64,000 bases of DNA from NCBI RefSeq assembly GCF_009796805.1, contig NZ_CP047029.1, forward strand, positions 2,778,001 to 2,842,000. The letters are read 5' to 3'. This document shows, in pieces, positions 29,021 to 39,425 of this stretch. The stretch is from Algibacter sp. L1A34 (GTDB taxonomy: Bacteria; Bacteroidota; Bacteroidia; Flavobacteriales; Flavobacteriaceae). The notes below the pieces were generated by a model. It had not been told where the DNA came from and ran no database searches. It saw only the letters and a program-made list of their open reading frames with translations. The first letter of the stretch is position 1; each line of letters starts with the position of its first letter. The translations under genes and the position numbers were made by a program.

Positions 29021-31741
29021 TTAATATTTTAAAGTGAAATGGTCTTTGTATATACGGCCATCTTCCAATTGAATTGCAAACCAATAATCATCGGCAGGTA
29101 ATAATGCGCCATTAAAACGACCGTTCCATCCGGTGTCTTCGGGGCTTAATGTTTTTAATAATTTTCCGTAGCGGTTATAAATTAAAATTTCCGAGTTGGG
29201 TTGATTATCACTTGATATACCGTAGATTTTCCATGTATCATGAAAACCATCATTATTAGGTGTGAAAAACTTTGGGAATCCTATAACATGGGCTTTTTGA
29301 TTAACAGCACCACAATCGTTTTTTGTATCCTTTACCGAAATGGTATAAACACCAGGAAAAACATTTTCAAAAACGGGTTCACTTTGGTATGGAGCAATTA
29401 CCACATTATTACTATCTAATAGTCTATACTCATAATCACCTTCACCCGAAGCTATAACAGTAATGCTATTATTTTTAGATACATCTTTAATTTCAATATT
29501 ATCTATGGTTGCAATATTGGCTCCTTCAATAGTAATTATTCTACTTTTAGAACATCCAGCAGCATTTGTAACGGTAACATTATACGTGCCTGTTTCATTG
29601 ATATTTATGGTATATGTATTCTCAGATGTCGACCAATTGTATGTGTAATTGTTTGGAGTATCGTTTATTAAATCTGCATTAATAGCAATGGTTTCTGGGA
29701 ATTTATTAATACAATAGAAGAAAAAAGCTTCAGTTTCTATTTGTGGTAATTCGTTAACTGTGAGTTCGATTTCGCTTATACCATAACAGTTATTAGCATT
29801 TTCTATACGTGCATAAAGGGTTTGTGAGTAAGCTGTTATATTGGTGTAAATGTTGTTTAGGTTGTTTTCTTCTAATAAGGCATCCGTATAATTTTCAAAA
29901 TACAAAATAGTTAAACCAGCAGGTAATCCATCTGTAAGTTGTATATCGGCATCATTTAAATCGAAGGTTTGAAAACCATCTTCAGTTCCATCATCATCGC
30001 ATAAAATTAATTCGGCATCTTTAGAATCGGTGGAGCTCACCGCAATGGTTAATTCAGAATAATCAAAACAAGTGGTTGCTGGATTATAAACTTCAACATA
30101 AATAATTTGTGGGTTAGATGTGTTATTATAGCTCGTACCATCTATTTCTATAGTTCTGGCGCTATCTGAATAAAAACGAGTTTCTAAGTCTGCCACATTT
30201 CCTGTTACAGCTTCGTTGGCTTCGTTTAAAACAAAGGTAGTTCTGTCGTCTTTTAATCCATCTTCATCACATTGTAATAAAGTGTAATTGAAGGCTACGG
30301 GATTTTCGTTAAAATTCACATAAGCTTCTCCTTCTAAAGCACAGTCGCCGTTATTCGGGTCGATATAAACTTCGTAATGTCCGCTGGTATCTATAAATAG
30401 GTTAGCACTAGATTCAGCAAGCGGTAAACCATCTACAGACCAAGTATACGTGGCGCCAGTAATATCATCGGCTGCTAGGGTATAAGTATCGTTTTCGCAC
30501 AAATCTAAATTAACAGTGCTTTTTTTATTTTGAATAATATCAATTTTTGTATTGAAAAAAGACTGAATAAAAGGAGGTAAACCTTGCGAGGATAAGTTAG
30601 GCGATAAGTTTACGGCATTATGCTCATAATTACTTGCTACTCCTAATTCGTTTGGATTGTTTATTACCGCTAGATATGGTAAACCTTGTCTGTAAGTGGA
30701 ACTTAGTGCCCTATAGATTTTTCCGTTTGGAGCAAGTTGTAAACCACCTCGAAAAAGTTGTCTATCATCCAGAACTACAGCAGAATTTATAATATCTGGT
30801 GCGAGTAAATTATATTGAATAAGCTTCGATTCATGGTTGGCAGGGTTTTCATTGTTTTGGGGATTACTGTTATCCGAGAAATCGTTATATGTGCTAGCAT
30901 AAAGTAATTCACTATTAGGAGAAAATTCTAGACCATAGGCTTTATTTGCAGAACCTGATATAGGTATAAGTAGCTGGTTGCTAACAATTCCTGTCGCTAC
31001 ATCAAAATCGTATAAATACATACCGTTTTGTACGTTACTGCATGCCATCTTAGTGCCATCTGGAGATAGTTTTAAATAGCCTCTATAATCTATAAAAATG
31101 GAAGACGGTAATTTAAATGTCGATTTAATAGGAGCATTTTGTACGCCAGTGTTGTCAACTTCGTAAGCATAAAAAGTGTCTAAATCTCCCTCGTTTCCAT
31201 CGACCGATGCAAAAGCAATAACCCAAATAGAATTGGTGATACAATCTTTTAAAACGGCGGTTATTTTCTCAGAACAATCGTTTAATAAATTAACGTTTTT
31301 AGTAGTAACTTCACCTAAGCCACCATCTAGAGTGATATCAACTTCAGAATAATTTAATCCAAAATGGGTTTCGTTATTATTGTGGTCGTCTACTGTAAAA
31401 ATGTAGTAAATATTTTCATCGTCTGGTTTGGGAACAATAATAGCCGATTGCGTACTCGAAGGATCTCCAAATAAACCACTACCATTGTTCATGATATCGT
31501 GGTTTCTATTCCAAACAGTTGTTCCATCTGTATAGAAAAGTAAATCTCCAAATTCATCAGAAATAGTTGCACAACCTTCATATGTGTTTAATTTTCCATC
31601 GGATAAAGTTGAAATACTATTAGAGGCTAAATCAAATTTAATGCCGCTGTTGTAACCAAAATACCAGGTAGATGCTTCACTTTGAGCGTAGATGTTAAAT
31701 CCAACTAAAAAGAATAATGCGAGTAGTATGTTTTTTTTCAT
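29021..31741 (-). CDS. Type IX-secreted surface protein with beta-propeller-like head and two repeats
   Basis: 906 residues, signal peptide ending near IYAQ (19). The N-terminal 390 residues have propeller-like blades (TWYFGYNSGIKFD, GDLLFYTDGTTVWN, YLKLSPDGTKMA, GLEFSPNSELLYAS, GGLQLAPNGKIYRA) as in many T9SS cargo proteins. An Ig-like domain, two CD-type repeats (QCDEDG, LCDDDG), Ig/SprB-like units and a type B sorting domain (FFTPNNDGFHDTW) follow. From the first CD repeat to the C-terminus it is closely similar to the 815-residue neighbour, while the N-terminal heads are unrelated, which suggests module swapping. Confidence 0.9.
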   Translation of the reverse strand: MKKNILLALFFLVGFNIYAQSEASTWYFGYNSGIKFDLASNSISTLSDGKLNTYEGCATISDEFGDLLFYTDGTTVWNRNHDIMNNGSGLFGDPSSTQSAIIVPKPDDENIYYIFTVDDHNNNETHFGLNYSEVDITLDGGLGEVTTKNVNLLNDCSEKITAVLKDCITNSIWVIAFASVDGNEGDLDTFYAYEVDNTGVQNAPIKSTFKLPSSIFIDYRGYLKLSPDGTKMACSNVQNGMYLYDFDVATGIVSNQLLIPISGSANKAYGLEFSPNSELLYASTYNDFSDNSNPQNNENPANHESKLIQYNLLAPDIINSAVVLDDRQLFRGGLQLAPNGKIYRALSSTYRQGLPYLAVINNPNELGVASNYEHNAVNLSPNLSSQGLPPFIQSFFNTKIDIIQNKKSTVNLDLCENDTYTLAADDITGATYTWSVDGLPLAESSANLFIDTSGHYEVYIDPNNGDCALEGEAYVNFNENPVAFNYTLLQCDEDGLKDDRTTFVLNEANEAVTGNVADLETRFYSDSARTIEIDGTSYNNTSNPQIIYVEVYNPATTCFDYSELTIAVSSTDSKDAELILCDDDGTEDGFQTFDLNDADIQLTDGLPAGLTILYFENYTDALLEENNLNNIYTNITAYSQTLYARIENANNCYGISEIELTVNELPQIETEAFFFYCINKFPETIAINADLINDTPNNYTYNWSTSENTYTININETGTYNVTVTNAAGCSKSRIITIEGANIATIDNIEIKDVSKNNSITVIASGEGDYEYRLLDSNNVVIAPYQSEPVFENVFPGVYTISVKDTKNDCGAVNQKAHVIGFPKFFTPNNDGFHDTWKIYGISSDNQPNSEILIYNRYGKLLKTLSPEDTGWNGRFNGALLPADDYWFAIQLEDGRIYKDHFTLKY

Positions 31742-33736: not shown

Positions 33737-34801
33737 ATGGAAGATTTAAAAATATCGAAAAGGAAACCATCATATCCGATAACGCCAAAATTGCATGATT
33801 ACCTCTCGGAATATAATAGGAATACAAAAATCCCTATTTTTTACGACGATTTATTGCGTTTTCAAGGCTCGATAGTGGTTTATGATAAGGATGATAATGA
33901 TACGCTCTGGATTCGGGTGTATTACAATGAGTTTGAGCGTGAAGAAATTGAGCATTCTCTAAAAAAAGTATATACCATTTTACATTCTGATGGAAACGAA
34001 AATATTTTTCAGTTTTTAAGTGTGGATGCTATAGATTTTTGCACCTTCGGAAACTCTAAGCCTTTCCGTATAAAAGTTCGTAATATTTTAAACGATAATT
34101 ACACTTATTTTTATATAAAAATAGCAGATGCATCAAGAATTTACGGGCTAGAATTAGAGCACATGCTTTCGCCTTATAATTTGAATTTTCTAATTTACGA
34201 AAACACGTTAATTGAAGAGCATATTGTTGGAATTCCAGGCGATGAGTTTATAAAAAACTTTTTACCAAAATGCAGTAAATCGGAGAAAACGCAGATAGCT
34301 AAAGAATTTGTGAAGTTTAACGAACGTTGTATGATAAGGCTTTTAGGCGATATGAGATCTTATAATTACGTAATTGTGCCTACACACGATTTTGATCATG
34401 TAGTTTATAATATTCGCGCAATAGATTTCGATCAGCAATGCTATGAAGGAAAACTTAATATTTACAGACCACAATTTTTTAAAGAAAATTTAAAAATGGT
34501 AGAGTTGGTTACCGAGAGGGTACAAAAACTCTCTATCGATCAATATAAAATAGAAGAGCGTTCCATATTAGTAAAAAGGTTCAAAAGTTTTCGTGATAGA
34601 ATAGAGGCATTATTGACTTGTATGGATGAAGATACCATTTCTAACGAGGAGAATATCACTTTATTAAAAACTAAAATTTTCGATTATACCCAGGATATCG
34701 AATTTAGAAATTGTAAAAATATGGGAGATATTTTAAGGCATACTTTAAGGTTTTTAACCCATAATTACGAGAATGTAAACATAAAAGGTTTTTATAACTA
34801 A
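33737..34801 (+). CDS. Uncharacterised protein with protein-kinase-like motifs
   Basis: 354 residues, no signal peptide or membrane segment. I do not recognise a named family, but the middle reads like a kinase fold. YFYIKIAD (K128) resembles strand 3 with its lysine, GLELEHML (E139/E141) could be helix C, and TLIEEHIVGIPGDEFI (158-171) looks like the hinge and following helix of small bacterial kinases. GDMRSYN gives D205 and N210, the five-residue spacing of the catalytic loop, and RAIDFDQ (D230, D232) sits where the metal-binding DFG would be. A glycine-rich loop is not evident. The N-terminal 100 and C-terminal 100 residues are unassigned. It is divergent from the ABC exporter genes and convergent with a 78-residue gene. 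Confidence 0.7.
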   Translation: MEDLKISKRKPSYPITPKLHDYLSEYNRNTKIPIFYDDLLRFQGSIVVYDKDDNDTLWIRVYYNEFEREEIEHSLKKVYTILHSDGNENIFQFLSVDAIDFCTFGNSKPFRIKVRNILNDNYTYFYIKIADASRIYGLELEHMLSPYNLNFLIYENTLIEEHIVGIPGDEFIKNFLPKCSKSEKTQIAKEFVKFNERCMIRLLGDMRSYNYVIVPTHDFDHVVYNIRAIDFDQQCYEGKLNIYRPQFFKENLKMVELVTERVQKLSIDQYKIEERSILVKRFKSFRDRIEALLTCMDEDTISNEENITLLKTKIFDYTQDIEFRNCKNMGDILRHTLRFLTHNYENVNIKGFYN

Positions 34802-34808
34802 GTTGCAG

Positions 34809-35045
34809 CTAGGTCGTGTAAACTTGTCCGCGATGCGGTTTTAAAGCATCACGAATCGGTTTCATATCCGCCTCATCAACTACTAAAAAAGCAATGCAAT
34901 GCATTTCACTTAAAACCTCAATACCCGTAATGGTTATGTCGAGTTTTTCGAGTTTGATATATTCTTTTAAATGGATTACGTGGTGTTCTGCTATTTTTTG
35001 ACCATTCGGCCCTCTAAAATCCCAGATAAGTTTAAGTTTACGCAT
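34809..35045 (-). CDS. Small conserved-looking hypothetical protein (78 residues)
   Basis: Begins MRKLKLIWDFRGPNGQKIAE and ends PHRGQVYTT; mixed alpha/beta, soluble. The HHVIHLKEYI and ALKPHRGQVY segments look constrained, and I believe similar proteins occur widely in flavobacteria, but no function is known to me. It faces the kinase-like gene with 7 bp between their stops, and has its own ATG and codon usage like the neighbours. Confidence 0.7.
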   Translation of the reverse strand: MRKLKLIWDFRGPNGQKIAEHHVIHLKEYIKLEKLDITITGIEVLSEMHCIAFLVVDEADMKPIRDALKPHRGQVYTT

Positions 35046-35182: not shown

Positions 35183-37138
35183 ATGAAGTTTAAATATTTT
35201 TTTATTCTAGTTTCGTTCTTTTTATGTTTTTTATCAAATGCACAAACAACGGGTGAAGAGGTTTTACTTGAGGTTGGTGGCGATCCGGTTTATGTATCTG
35301 AGTTTATGAATGTTTATAATAAAAACTTGGATTTAGTACAAGATGAATCACAGAAAAATGTAGATGAGTATCTCAAACTTTTCACAAATTATAAGCTTAA
35401 ATTAAAGGAAGCTAAAACTCTTGGGTTAGACGAAAAACGAACTTACAAACGTGAGTTGCTAAGTTATAGAAAGCAGTTGGCTAAAAATTTTATGACGGAT
35501 AATACGGTTACCGAAGCTTTAGTAGAAGAGGCTTACAATCGTATTTCTAACGAGGTTAAGGCACAACATATTTTAGTGTTATTAGCCGAAGACGCTAATC
35601 CTACAGATACTTTGGCTGCTTATAATAAAATAAACAAATTACGTGAAGCAACTTTAGCTGAAGGTTTTGCAAATACAATGAAGCAAAAAGCCGATGGGAA
35701 AACAATAATTGCCGAACAATTGGGCTGGTTTAACGGTTTTAAAATGGTTTATGCTTTTGAAAATGCAGCGTTTAATACTGCAGTTGGAGAAACGTCTCAG
35801 CCATTTAGAACGCGTTTTGGATACCATATTGTTAATGTGCAAGATAAACGTAAATCACGAGGCGAGCTTACCGTAGCGCATATTATGATCGTAAAAAAGG
35901 AAGGCGATGTAGGAGCAGAAGATCCTGAAACTAGAATTCAAGATATTTATAAAAAAATAAATCAAGGTGAAGATTTTGAGGCTTTGGCTAAGCAATTTTC
36001 TGATGATAAAAGTTCGGCTTCAAAAGGCGGATTAATGCCTGCGTTTTCTGGCGGACAATTAAGTGCTACAGAATTTGAAGATGTTGCTTTTGGATTAAAG
36101 GAAATAGGCGAAGTATCCAAACCTTTTAAAACCCAATACGGTTGGCATATTGTTAAATTATACAATAAAAAGCCAATTGCAGATTTTAAGGAATTAAAAA
36201 CAGAATTGGTTCAGAAAGTAAAACGTGACGAGCGTTCTAAGCGTATTGATAATGCGTTGTACAGTAAACTAAAAGAAACGTATAAAGTAAGTGGTGAGCA
36301 ACCAAATCTTGATTATTTTGTATCGGTTTTAAATGAAGATTATTATAAACGCAAATGGAAATTACCATCGAGTTTTGAAGCAACAAAAACCTTGTTTACA
36401 ATAGGCGAGAAGGAATTTAAATATAAAGATTTTGGTGATTTTTTAGTAAAAACCCAACGTAATCTACGTAATAACACACCTTTTAAGGCTATTGTAGAAG
36501 AAAAGTATATAGAATTTTTTAACATGAGTTTAGTGGATTATCACGAAGAAAATTTGGAGAATGTAAATCCAGAATTTGCAAATATTATTATGGAGTATCG
36601 TGATGGTTTATTGCTTTTCGACTTAATGGAAAACACCATTTGGAATGCTGCAAAAACAGATTCTGTTGCGATTCAAGAATTCTACGATTTAAATAGAAGT
36701 AATTATATTTCACCAAAACGAATAGATGCCGTAGTCGCTTCTTCATCGAAACAAAAAACATTGAAAAAAGTTTCGAAATTACTTTCTGAAGATATGAGTT
36801 TAGAGCGTATTAAAAACTTAGTGAATAGTAACGATGCCGTTGAAGTTATTTTTACTTCAGGAATTATGGATGCAGAGCATCAAACAATACCAAAAGGGTT
36901 TAAGTTTAAAAAAGGTGTTTCTAAAATTTTCAAGCATAACGATGCTTTCGAAGTTATTCAGGTTAAAGAAATTTTACCAAAAGCTCAAAAAACTCTAGAA
37001 GAGGCAAAAGGCTCTGTTATTTCAGATTATCAAAACGATAAAGAAGAAAAATGGGTAAAAACTTTAGCCGATAAGTATAAAGTGGTTATAAATAAGGACG
37101 TATTGAAAAAGGTGAAATCTCAAATAGAAAAACAATAG
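35183..37138 (+). CDS. Periplasmic peptidyl-prolyl isomerase with two parvulin domains
   Basis: 651 residues, signal peptide ending near SNAQ (21). A SurA-like N-terminal helical domain is followed by two parvulin domains: about 118-225 (KAQHILVLL, QLGWFNG, FGYHIVNVQDKR) and about 228-335 (VAHIMIVKK, FSDDKSSASKGG, YGWHIVKLYNKK). The C-terminal 300 residues are unassigned helical sequence. It should help fold outer-membrane or secreted proteins, which this organism makes in quantity. It starts the operon, with the next start one base after its stop. Confidence 0.9.
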   Translation: MKFKYFFILVSFFLCFLSNAQTTGEEVLLEVGGDPVYVSEFMNVYNKNLDLVQDESQKNVDEYLKLFTNYKLKLKEAKTLGLDEKRTYKRELLSYRKQLAKNFMTDNTVTEALVEEAYNRISNEVKAQHILVLLAEDANPTDTLAAYNKINKLREATLAEGFANTMKQKADGKTIIAEQLGWFNGFKMVYAFENAAFNTAVGETSQPFRTRFGYHIVNVQDKRKSRGELTVAHIMIVKKEGDVGAEDPETRIQDIYKKINQGEDFEALAKQFSDDKSSASKGGLMPAFSGGQLSATEFEDVAFGLKEIGEVSKPFKTQYGWHIVKLYNKKPIADFKELKTELVQKVKRDERSKRIDNALYSKLKETYKVSGEQPNLDYFVSVLNEDYYKRKWKLPSSFEATKTLFTIGEKEFKYKDFGDFLVKTQRNLRNNTPFKAIVEEKYIEFFNMSLVDYHEENLENVNPEFANIIMEYRDGLLLFDLMENTIWNAAKTDSVAIQEFYDLNRSNYISPKRIDAVVASSSKQKTLKKVSKLLSEDMSLERIKNLVNSNDAVEVIFTSGIMDAEHQTIPKGFKFKKGVSKIFKHNDAFEVIQVKEILPKAQKTLEEAKGSVISDYQNDKEEKWVKTLADKYKVVINKDVLKKVKSQIEKQ

Positions 37139-37993
37139 ATGCAAAGAATAATCATTTTTATAATTTTAGCGTCATTAATGGTATCCTGCGATTTTTTTAG
37201 AAACGAGGAAGATAATCGCACACCAATTGCCAGAGTTAATAATTCGTATCTATACGAAGAGGATGTCTCACAATTAGTTTCCGAAGCCACTACAAAAGAA
37301 GATAGTGCAGTTTTAGTTGATAACTATATTAAAAATTGGGCTACAAAGCAACTGCTTTTAGATGGCGCTTTGCTTAATTTAAGTGAGGAGAAACAAGCAA
37401 GATTTGATAAATTGGTGAAACAATATAAAACAGATTTATACACTAAGGCATATATTGAGGCTTTAGTTAATAGAAGTATTGATACTGTAGTTGATCGAAA
37501 TAAGGCAGAAGCTTATTATGACCTAAATAAAGATGTTTTTAAGTTGAATGAAGAATTAATTAAATTTAGATACATTCATGTAGATGAAAATATTATTGAT
37601 TACAGTGGTATTGTAAAAAGATTTAAGCGTTTCACTGAAACCGATAAAAAGGAGTTAGATTCTATGTCTATTCAATTTAAATCCTATTCGTTAAACGATT
37701 CTATTTGGATAAAAGTAAGTCAGGTTGTTAGTAAAATTCCTGCTATTACACCCGAAAATAAAAATCAACTGTTAAAAAAATCTAATTTTGTACAGCTCAA
37801 AGATTCATTAGGAGTATATTTGATGCAAATTAATGATGTTTTAGGAAGAAATGATACGGCGCCGCTGGAATTTGTAACGCCAACAATTAACCAAATTGTT
37901 AAAAATAAGCGTAAATTAGAACTGATTAAAAAATTAGAAAAAGACATTACTAAGGATGCTATTAAAAATAAAGAATTTGAAATTTATAAATAA
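37139..37993 (+). CDS. Lipoprotein of the PPIase cluster, no clear parvulin core
   Basis: 284 residues. MVSC at 14-17 is a likely lipobox, giving a lipoprotein at Cys17. The start ATG directly follows the upstream TAG. TPIARVNNSYLYEEDV resembles the beginning of the SurA-like N-domain of the two flanking PPIases, and the helical middle fits too. The region where a parvulin domain should lie (about 150-240) lacks the usual HIL and GYHI motifs. It may be a chaperone that lost isomerase activity and works with its neighbours. Its 3' end overlaps the next gene by 38 bp if that gene uses its ATG. Confidence 0.75.
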   Translation: MQRIIIFIILASLMVSCDFFRNEEDNRTPIARVNNSYLYEEDVSQLVSEATTKEDSAVLVDNYIKNWATKQLLLDGALLNLSEEKQARFDKLVKQYKTDLYTKAYIEALVNRSIDTVVDRNKAEAYYDLNKDVFKLNEELIKFRYIHVDENIIDYSGIVKRFKRFTETDKKELDSMSIQFKSYSLNDSIWIKVSQVVSKIPAITPENKNQLLKKSNFVQLKDSLGVYLMQINDVLGRNDTAPLEFVTPTINQIVKNKRKLELIKKLEKDITKDAIKNKEFEIYK

Positions 37994-39425
37994 CTTGAAA
38001 TTTATTACTGTTGCTTTACTATGTATAGGAAATGCAGCATTTGCACAAGAAATTATTGAAGAAGAAGTTGACGTAAAAGTGGACTCTACGAGTTTAGCTC
38101 AAAACGTGAAAAGCGAGGTGCAAAGTGATTACAAAAAGCAAAAAGTAGATGCGGTTGCTGCGGTTGTTGGAGATTTTATTGTTTTAGAATCTGATGTTGA
38201 TAAAACGTATTTGCAATTAGAAGCACAAGGTGTTAGTGTAAAAGACATTGAGCCGTGCCAGTTATTTGGAAAACTATTAGAAGATAAATTGTATGCGCAC
38301 CATGCTATACAAGATAGTATTATAGTTTCTGATGCGGAAATACGCAGTATGGTGGATTACCAAATGGAGCAGTTTTTAGCTGAATTAAATGGTGATATGA
38401 CACGTTTGTTAGCGCTTTATGAAAAAGATAGCGAGAAAGCGGTTCGAGAAGAAATGTTCGAAATCAATAAGAAGAATAAGTTAGCTAAGGAAATGCAAGC
38501 TAAAATTGTTTCGGAAATTGAGGTGACTCCAGAAGAAGTTCGTTTATTTTTCTCAAAAATATCTAAAGAAGATCGTCCAACGTTTGGAACAGAACTTAAA
38601 GTAGCTCAAATTGTTTCGGAACCTAAAGTATCAGAAGATGAAGAGCAACGTGTAATAGACAGATTAAAACAGTTTAAGGCCGATATTGTTGAAAAAGGTG
38701 CAAGTTTCCGTTCTAAAGCGGTATTGTATTCTGAAGATCCTGGTTCTGCTAGTCGTGGTGGTAAATATACCTTGAATAAGAAAAAACCTAGAATGGTTAA
38801 GGAATTTAGACAAGTGGCATTTGCACTTCAAGAAGGTGAAATTTCTGAGCCATTTAAATCTGATTTTGGTTACCATATTATAACGGTAGATAAAATTAGA
38901 GGTCAAGAATACGATGTAAGTCATATTTTATTAACGCCTAAGGTTTCAGATGAAGCTATAGCGGAAGCTAAAGAACGTCTTGAAAAAGTTAGAGATCGTA
39001 TTGAAAAAGGTGATATTACTTTTGCAGATGCGGCTCGCGAAGCAAGTGACGAAAAAGAGACACGTAATGATGGCGGACAATTAATAAACCCTGCAACACA
39101 GGATTATAATTTCGAATTAACTAAAATGGATCCTGAGTTATATTCTCAGATTCAAGATTTAAAAGAAGGCGAAGTTAGTTTAGTTTTAACAGAGCAAGAT
39201 AGAACAGGGAATATTAAGTATAAAATATTAAGAGTAACCGATAGAATAGATGAGCATGAAGCTAATTATGCTAGAGATTACTTAAAAATTAGAGAACTTG
39301 CTTTAGACGAAAAGAAAATTAAGGCCATCGAAGATTGGCAAAAAGAAAAAATAGCAGATACTTATATTAAAATTGGATCTAAATACAGAGATTGCGAGTT
39401 TTCTAGTAACTGGTTAAAAAACTAA
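37956..39425 (+). CDS. SurA-like peptidyl-prolyl isomerase with two parvulin domains
   Basis: 489 residues with a signal peptide ending at AFAQ. The ATG at 37956 overlaps the upstream gene by 38 bp; a TTG at 37995, one base past its stop, would give a neater 18-residue signal, so the true start is unsettled. A SurA N-domain (VAAVVGDFIVLESDVDK) precedes parvulin domains at about 205-310 (LKVAQIVSEP, SRGGKYTLN, FGYHIITVDKIRG) and 315-420 (VSHILLTPK, DGGQLINP). It is a predicted periplasmic chaperone for outer-membrane proteins. MoxR follows after 4 bp. Confidence 0.9.
   Translation: MLLKIKNLKFINNLKFITVALLCIGNAAFAQEIIEEEVDVKVDSTSLAQNVKSEVQSDYKKQKVDAVAAVVGDFIVLESDVDKTYLQLEAQGVSVKDIEPCQLFGKLLEDKLYAHHAIQDSIIVSDAEIRSMVDYQMEQFLAELNGDMTRLLALYEKDSEKAVREEMFEINKKNKLAKEMQAKIVSEIEVTPEEVRLFFSKISKEDRPTFGTELKVAQIVSEPKVSEDEEQRVIDRLKQFKADIVEKGASFRSKAVLYSEDPGSASRGGKYTLNKKKPRMVKEFRQVAFALQEGEISEPFKSDFGYHIITVDKIRGQEYDVSHILLTPKVSDEAIAEAKERLEKVRDRIEKGDITFADAAREASDEKETRNDGGQLINPATQDYNFELTKMDPELYSQIQDLKEGEVSLVLTEQDRTGNIKYKILRVTDRIDEHEANYARDYLKIRELALDEKKIKAIEDWQKEKIADTYIKIGSKYRDCEFSSNWLKN

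Follow-up and report, generated by a model that had tools for sequence, protein, structure and literature searches.

A largely single-copy family of probable kinases in Bacteroidota with a PI3K-like predicted fold

Members of the protein-kinase-like superfamily are recognised by a two-lobed kinase fold and by a small set of residues: a lysine, an acidic residue in helix C, a catalytic aspartate, an asparagine and a metal-binding aspartate. The PI3K, PI4K and PIKK kinases share a GD-x-x-x-x-N catalytic loop and a metal motif of the form hydrophobic-I-D-F, which in the family PF00454 read GDRHxxN ... HIDFG. In PI3K-gamma, VPS34 and mTOR an aspartate or glutamate lies three residues after the lysine, an arginine lies six residues after it, and an asparagine lies five residues after the catalytic aspartate. 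The kinase fold also hosts other reactions; these include AMPylation by SelO, a pseudokinase, and glutamylation by SidJ (PMC10870513). KINtaro comprises 72 kinase-like families, 32 of which are unrecognised in domain databases (PMC10870513). Kinase families that are missed by annotation hide whole metabolic or signalling steps.

The family described here resembles those in KINtaro in being unrecognised and in having a predicted kinase fold (PMC10870513), and it could itself be listed there. Its representative is encoded in a 64,000-nucleotide stretch of DNA (the window) from Algibacter sp. L1A34, a member of the Flavobacteriaceae close to Algibacter with a complete genome of 4.64 Mb. The open reading frame was confirmed where an earlier note, made from the letters alone, had located it (Table 1). 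It has one match only within its own genome, and its nearest named relative is that of Algibacter miyuki (92% protein identity). The product is short and soluble-looking, and no transmembrane or signal segment is apparent by eye in its sequence. It is reported as a new kinase-like family, unnamed in the libraries and the open-access literature covered. Among the open-access papers searched, none with the motif strings of the family was found, and none that describes a PI3K-like family in Bacteroidota. A search for Flavobacterium transposon fitness data found nothing usable.

The earlier note had proposed a kinase core made up of K128, E139/E141, a hinge-like segment (residues 157–172), D205, N210 and D230/D232, and all of these lie at those residues. 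Their conservation was assessed in 77 members of the family, all below 80% pairwise identity, with a lowest pair of 32%. Only 34 of the 354 positions are fully invariant in this set, and these include K128, D131, R134, E160, H162, D205, N210, D230, F231, D232 and Q233; the kinase motif residues are therefore not a coincidence. E141 is glutamate in 76 members and aspartate in one, while E139 is glutamate in 75 and aspartate in two. Variation at D205, N210 or D230 among homologues had been named in advance as grounds for abandoning the kinase reading, and each of the three is kept in 77/77. Conservation as strong as that of the ATP site is seen in the N-terminal extension and around the activation loop (Q233, Y243, P245 and N251 invariant). 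DFD stands in place of the usual DFG, and the conserved pair Q233-Q234 which follows is unusual.

Table 1. The kinase-like gene and the predicted parts of its product, with positions in the window.
Feature	Residues	Position	Strand	Remarks
Kinase-like gene		33737..34801	+	354 aa, stop included
N-terminal extension (ISKRKPSYPI..YL..YNR)	1–43	33737..33865	+	K10 and R28 invariant
N-lobe	44–129	33866..34123	+	From the AlphaFold model
P-loop equivalent, C-x-F-G-N-S/T-x-P-x-R	102–111	34040..34069	+	Proposed from position and spacing
Predicted ATP-phosphate lysine	K128	34118..34120	+	77/77; ends the strand preceding the first long helix
Start of alpha-C helix	131–141	34127..34159	+	D131 (K+3), R134 (K+6); E139/E141 are candidate partners of K128
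Hinge, TLIEEHIVGIPGDEFI	157–172	34205..34252	+	E160, H162 and G165 invariant; from the AlphaFold model
Catalytic loop, L-G-D205-M-R/H-x-x-N210	203–210	34343..34366	+	Assigned by conservation, hhalign and anchor spacing
DFG equivalent, I-D230-F-D232-Q-Q	229–234	34421..34438	+	Assigned by conservation and hhalign
Activation-loop region	230–251	34424..34489	+	Y243, P245 and N251 invariant; low model confidence at 232–249
All-helical end of C-lobe	252–348	34490..34780	+	From the model; aligns with PI3K C-lobes

AlphaFold models were built on Flavobacteriaceae relatives of 64–92% identity. The first, made with 80 Flavobacteriaceae sequences, has a mean pLDDT of 81.9 and a pTM of 0.80; the second, of a Zunongwangia protein with 54 alignment rows, has a mean pLDDT of 78.5 and a pTM of 0.76. 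The two are not independent, as most alignment rows are common to both. Both models have the two-lobed kinase fold, so the unrelated fold which the earlier note had held would count against it was not predicted. The N-lobe is modelled as strands 44–49, 55–62, 94–102, 110–116 and 121–129 with helices 65–83 and 88–93. In both models K128 closes strand 121–129 and is followed by a helix (132–144) that bears E139 and E141, after which short strands (151–154 and 157–161) lead to the hinge and then to helix 168–178. A further helix (181–204, ending at 202 in model 2) precedes the catalytic loop, which is followed by a strand pair (210–218/221–229), D230, a poorly predicted loop at about 231–249 and a helical end. 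In neither model is the activation loop predicted with good confidence. The predicted structures thus have the fold of the protein-kinase-like superfamily, and the lysine, helix-C acid, catalytic aspartate, asparagine and metal-binding aspartate of that superfamily are all present. In one respect the earlier note needs correction. It had seen no glycine loop, but the loop at 102–111 (CxFGNSxPxR), in which C102, N106, P109 and R111 are invariant and which sits between strands 94–102 and 110–116, is probably a P-loop of the PI3K type rather than a GxGxxG loop; this would account for the oversight.

When both models were compared with the PDB by Foldseek, the best matches were all kinases, with protein kinases in the lead for both models (E-values to 3.8e-4, probability about 0.99–1.00) and low global TM-scores of 0.25–0.30, and in a viral structure library protein kinases came first. 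The kinase reading is supported by a fold predicted twice and by strong structural neighbours of which every one is a kinase. The top 1000 Foldseek chains were re-aligned with VIA-align, for which the stated noise level is a Z of about 8. For model 1 all 50 rows were PI3K or PI4K, among them VPS34 (7rsj; Z 11.6, 269 residues, rmsd 4.5) and PI4KB (Z 10.1). For model 2 VPS34 (3ihy; Z 10.9, 263 residues, rmsd 4.6) and Tra1 of SAGA (8.6) were found, and the first kinases of another type were WaaP (6.6) and Bud32 (6.5). The PI3K-type matches cover residues 16–348. These PI3K-type Z-values exceed the noise level, but the candidates were preselected by Foldseek, which puts kinases of other types at a disadvantage in the comparison. 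The earlier note had suggested a fold comparison with HipA, APH, Fam20 and SelO; a kinase fold, as it expected, was predicted. Structures of these four are absent from the rows, which comprise preselected chains only, and the fold may also resemble theirs. Among the preselected chains the modelled fold is most likely nearest to PI3K/VPS34, and a PI3K-type kinase-domain fold, as in PF00454, is seen in the models over the whole chain within this limited candidate set.

The likeness to PI3K extends in part to the layout of the sequence. Kinase-domain sequences of PI3K-gamma, VPS34, PI4KB and mTOR, checked against PDB chains, were used for this, and in the comparison, which is post hoc and has few anchors, the family has D131, R134 and N210 at the K+3, K+6 and D+5 positions. 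The distance from the P-loop proline to the lysine is 19 residues in the family (P109–K128), 18 in VPS34 and mTOR, and 23 in PI3K-gamma. Other distances differ: the lysine and the catalytic aspartate are 77 residues apart, compared with 107 to 151 in PI3K-type kinases, and the catalytic and metal-binding aspartates are 25 residues apart (D205–D230) rather than 18–19. The GD-x-x-x-x-N loop and the hydrophobic-I-D-F motif are shared, whereas the full PF00454 motifs are matched in part only, the family reading LGDM(R/H)xxN ... IDFD. The histidine of GDRH is replaced by arginine in most members, with histidine at position 207 in 16/77, as in one deep clade. At about 350 residues in all, the protein is without the C2, helical and FAT domains of PI3K-type proteins.

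Sequence searches set the family apart. The earlier note had taken it to be undescribed, and it is indeed absent from the libraries searched (Pfam, NCBIfam, PHROGs and PADLOC), which were scanned with the protein and with 26 members: Pfam, NCBIfam and PHROGs gave no family match, and PADLOC gave a few low-scoring, unrelated matches of single members. The matches that did occur were weak and showed no pattern, and were rejected as composition effects; examples are ATCase_reg (E 0.0039, one member), MG491_central (0.027) and, from a library without a curated cut-off, a CARF model that matched one member (0.00036). No match to family models of Fam20 or SelO was found in the Pfam or NCBIfam scans, or to the APH family model PF01636 in the Pfam scans; the two APH matches of the same genome (E <= 0.001) lie at other loci, and the HipA model has no match anywhere in that genome. 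A search of PDB sequences, with the single sequence and with a profile, found no related chain.

In profile–profile comparison by hhalign, the family aligned with PI3K at an E-value of 0.055 over 106 columns, in which D205, N210 and D230 fall opposite the PI3K motifs, with APH at 0.058 over 19 columns and with HipA at 0.071 over 44 columns; these values are only slightly below the 0.091 reached by the best control among 15 unrelated neighbour families. None of the three kinase alignments is significant, though each has the catalytic loop in register, and the profile search that the earlier note had advised accordingly gave neither a family-library match nor a significant relation. The PF00454 model has no match at the gene in 30 genomes, even at an E-value of 10, and PF00454 members were found in 0/148 Bacteroidota genomes. 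Together with the insignificant profile comparison, this marks a separate family which is PI3K-like in predicted fold and does not belong to PF00454. Elsewhere in the same genome, outside the window, a different frame of 296 aa has a weak PF00454 match (G000:C1:1105413-1105562, E 0.15), and similar weak matches occur in G001 and G018 (E 0.005); these are possibly another kinase-like protein.

Searches for the family covered Bacteroidota genomes, viral contigs and plasmids, and the best 80 matches of one scan across genome contigs. Among 40 genomes chosen for their relatedness, 24 have a relative in open frame (50–92% identity), so the reading frame is not there by chance. The family is present in 80/296 sampled Bacteroidota genomes and in 97/295 genomes sampled from the class, a share of between about one quarter and one third, and nearly always in single copy; the laboratory genera Zobellia and Tenacibaculum are among those that have it. 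The family tree tracks taxonomy, with support of 100/99 for the Flavobacteriales clade and 100/100 for another Bacteroidota class. Inheritance is mainly vertical, with frequent loss, as is seen from the single copy, the agreement with the species tree and the occurrence in 80 of 296 genomes. No relative of the gene was found in the viral contigs and plasmids searched; it is therefore not phage or plasmid cargo.

Some individual genomes depart from this pattern. One, G129, has two members (L056:6001-7008 on the + strand and L057:6004-6987 on the − strand). The L057 copy, one of the 77 rows, is very divergent (branch 2.47) with its catalytic residues all kept, and a new function is possible for it. 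Decayed remnants of the gene occur in G286 and perhaps in G583; that in G286 (G286:C1:3158145-3158413) is in two pieces and interrupted by stops, which points to recent loss in that lineage. A metagenome bin labelled Rhodobacteraceae includes a contig (L097) with a copy of 70% identity in a Flavobacteriaceae gene order; this contig is probably mis-binned.

The neighbourhood of the gene in Flavobacteriaceae gives no reading of its function. The gene is flanked by divergent and convergent neighbours and has no close co-directional partner, and no operon partner was found in the Flavobacteriaceae loci examined, where neighbours are likewise divergent or convergent. In most genera of the family one flank consists of leftward ABC-transporter genes, and the opposite flank is also leftward, with for example a 37-kD nucleoid-associated protein (PF04245) and a pRiA4b-like protein (PF07929). 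On the 3' side of the gene in the window lies an ORF of 78 aa (34809..35045, −), without a match in Pfam or NCBIfam and common only to Algibacter miyuki among the loci examined. It is followed by three successive genes (35183..39425, +; 651, 284 and 489 aa) whose products we take to be periplasmic peptidyl-prolyl isomerases of the PpiC/SurA type or relatives of these. A protein of 906 aa (29021..31741, −) belongs to a family that adjoins the kinase region in most Flavobacteriaceae loci; its C-terminal FFTPNNDGFHDTWKIYG... and LPADDYWFAIQLEDGRIYKDHFTLKY look, by eye, like a sorting domain of type B for type IX secretion.

The explanation that we consider probable is that the gene encodes a cytoplasmic kinase which stands alone, belongs to the protein-kinase-like superfamily, has a two-lobed fold of the PI3K/VPS34 type and transfers phosphate from ATP-Mg to one dedicated substrate. 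ATP would be bound between the lobes, with its phosphates held by K128 and the loop at 102–111, and a glutamate of helix C, E141 or E139, would in turn hold K128. Segment 157–172 would act as the hinge and D205 as the catalytic aspartate, while N210 and D230, perhaps with D232, would hold Mg2+. The gamma-phosphate would then pass to a substrate recognised by the highly conserved loop 232–251. The protein is very probably catalytically active, given that every residue for Mg-ATP phosphotransfer is conserved. From the sequence and the models we infer ATP binding, transfer of phosphate rather than, for example, AMP, and one conserved substrate. The conserved N-terminal extension and activation loop, the single copy and the inheritance along the species tree suggest a single substrate that has stayed the same, and not the diversifying role of a toxin or defence gene.

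Other readings have been considered. It is unlikely that the protein is a diverged small-molecule kinase of the APH/choline-kinase type, or a protein kinase of the HipA type, whose likeness to PI3K reflects a shared core. The deep clade with H207 has a GD-M-H-x-x-N loop which resembles the GDxHxxN of APH-type kinases, IDFD resembles APH-type variants of DFG, and inheritance that is mostly single-copy and vertical would fit a metabolic kinase; the hhalign E-values, with the loops in the right register, are also as good as that for PI3K. Yet the stretches aligned with APH and HipA are short, and VIA-align ranks PI3K-type kinases highest with either model over nearly the whole chain; with model 2 they exceed WaaP and Bud32 by some 4 Z units, albeit among the top 1000 Foldseek chains, in which APH and HipA were not fairly compared. 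HipA (PF07804) shares the kinase core with the family but has no sequence relation to it, and it is multi-copy in several of the sampled Bacteroidota genomes, unlike a family which is mostly single-copy and tracks the species tree. A different chemistry on the kinase fold, AMPylation or glutamylation for instance, or a role as a regulatory pseudokinase is quite improbable. The precedents of SelO and SidJ, the replacement of DFG by DFD and the unusual Q233-Q234 are consistent with such a role; against it, the family keeps the canonical Mg-ATP residues invariant, including the catalytic aspartate and K128, and their retention across the phylum would be unexpected in a pseudokinase. That the motifs are coincidental and the protein, with an unrelated fold, is not a kinase at all is scarcely credible. 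Profile libraries do not recognise it and the sequence comparisons are not significant, but the predicted fold, the fold searches and the invariance of exactly the kinase residues largely refute this view.

A more specific proposal arises from the second Bacteroidota class, which is probably Rhodothermia, a guess from G+C and gene content. There bshA, identified by TIGR03999, lies directly upstream on the same strand at 15 of 23 loci (L052, L054, L059-L062, L065, L209 and L211-L217) in 6 of 8 families, with a gap of down to a few bases (L052). This adjacency is a weak functional lead towards a kinase in bacillithiol metabolism, with a precursor, a conjugate or an enzyme as its target, or in the redox regulation of that thiol. 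The whole gene block is conserved in the bshA clade, however, so that the pairing may be plain synteny, and it is absent from all Bacteroidia loci examined as well as from families f51 and f32. Furthermore, BshC is present in 291/296 genomes, with or without the kinase-like gene (80/296), and being nearly universal it gives no phyletic link to bacillithiol. For these reasons, conservation of the surrounding genes and the near-universality of BshC, a role in bacillithiol metabolism is rated very unlikely.

The reading as a PI3K/VPS34-type kinase would have consequences for both the organisms and the fold. Given the single copy and the conserved active site, the protein probably has one defined job in the bacteria that keep it. 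Possible, though at somewhat less than an even chance, is that this is a new PI3K-type family of bacterial kinases as old as the phylum, whose target, be it a metabolite, a lipid or a protein, would be novel as a phosphorylated molecule in Bacteroidota, and which may be a branch of the PI3K/PIKK fold that arose early in bacteria. If true, the occurrence of such a fold in bacterial proteins of this small size would bear on the origin of the eukaryotic lipid kinases and of the mTOR-type kinases.
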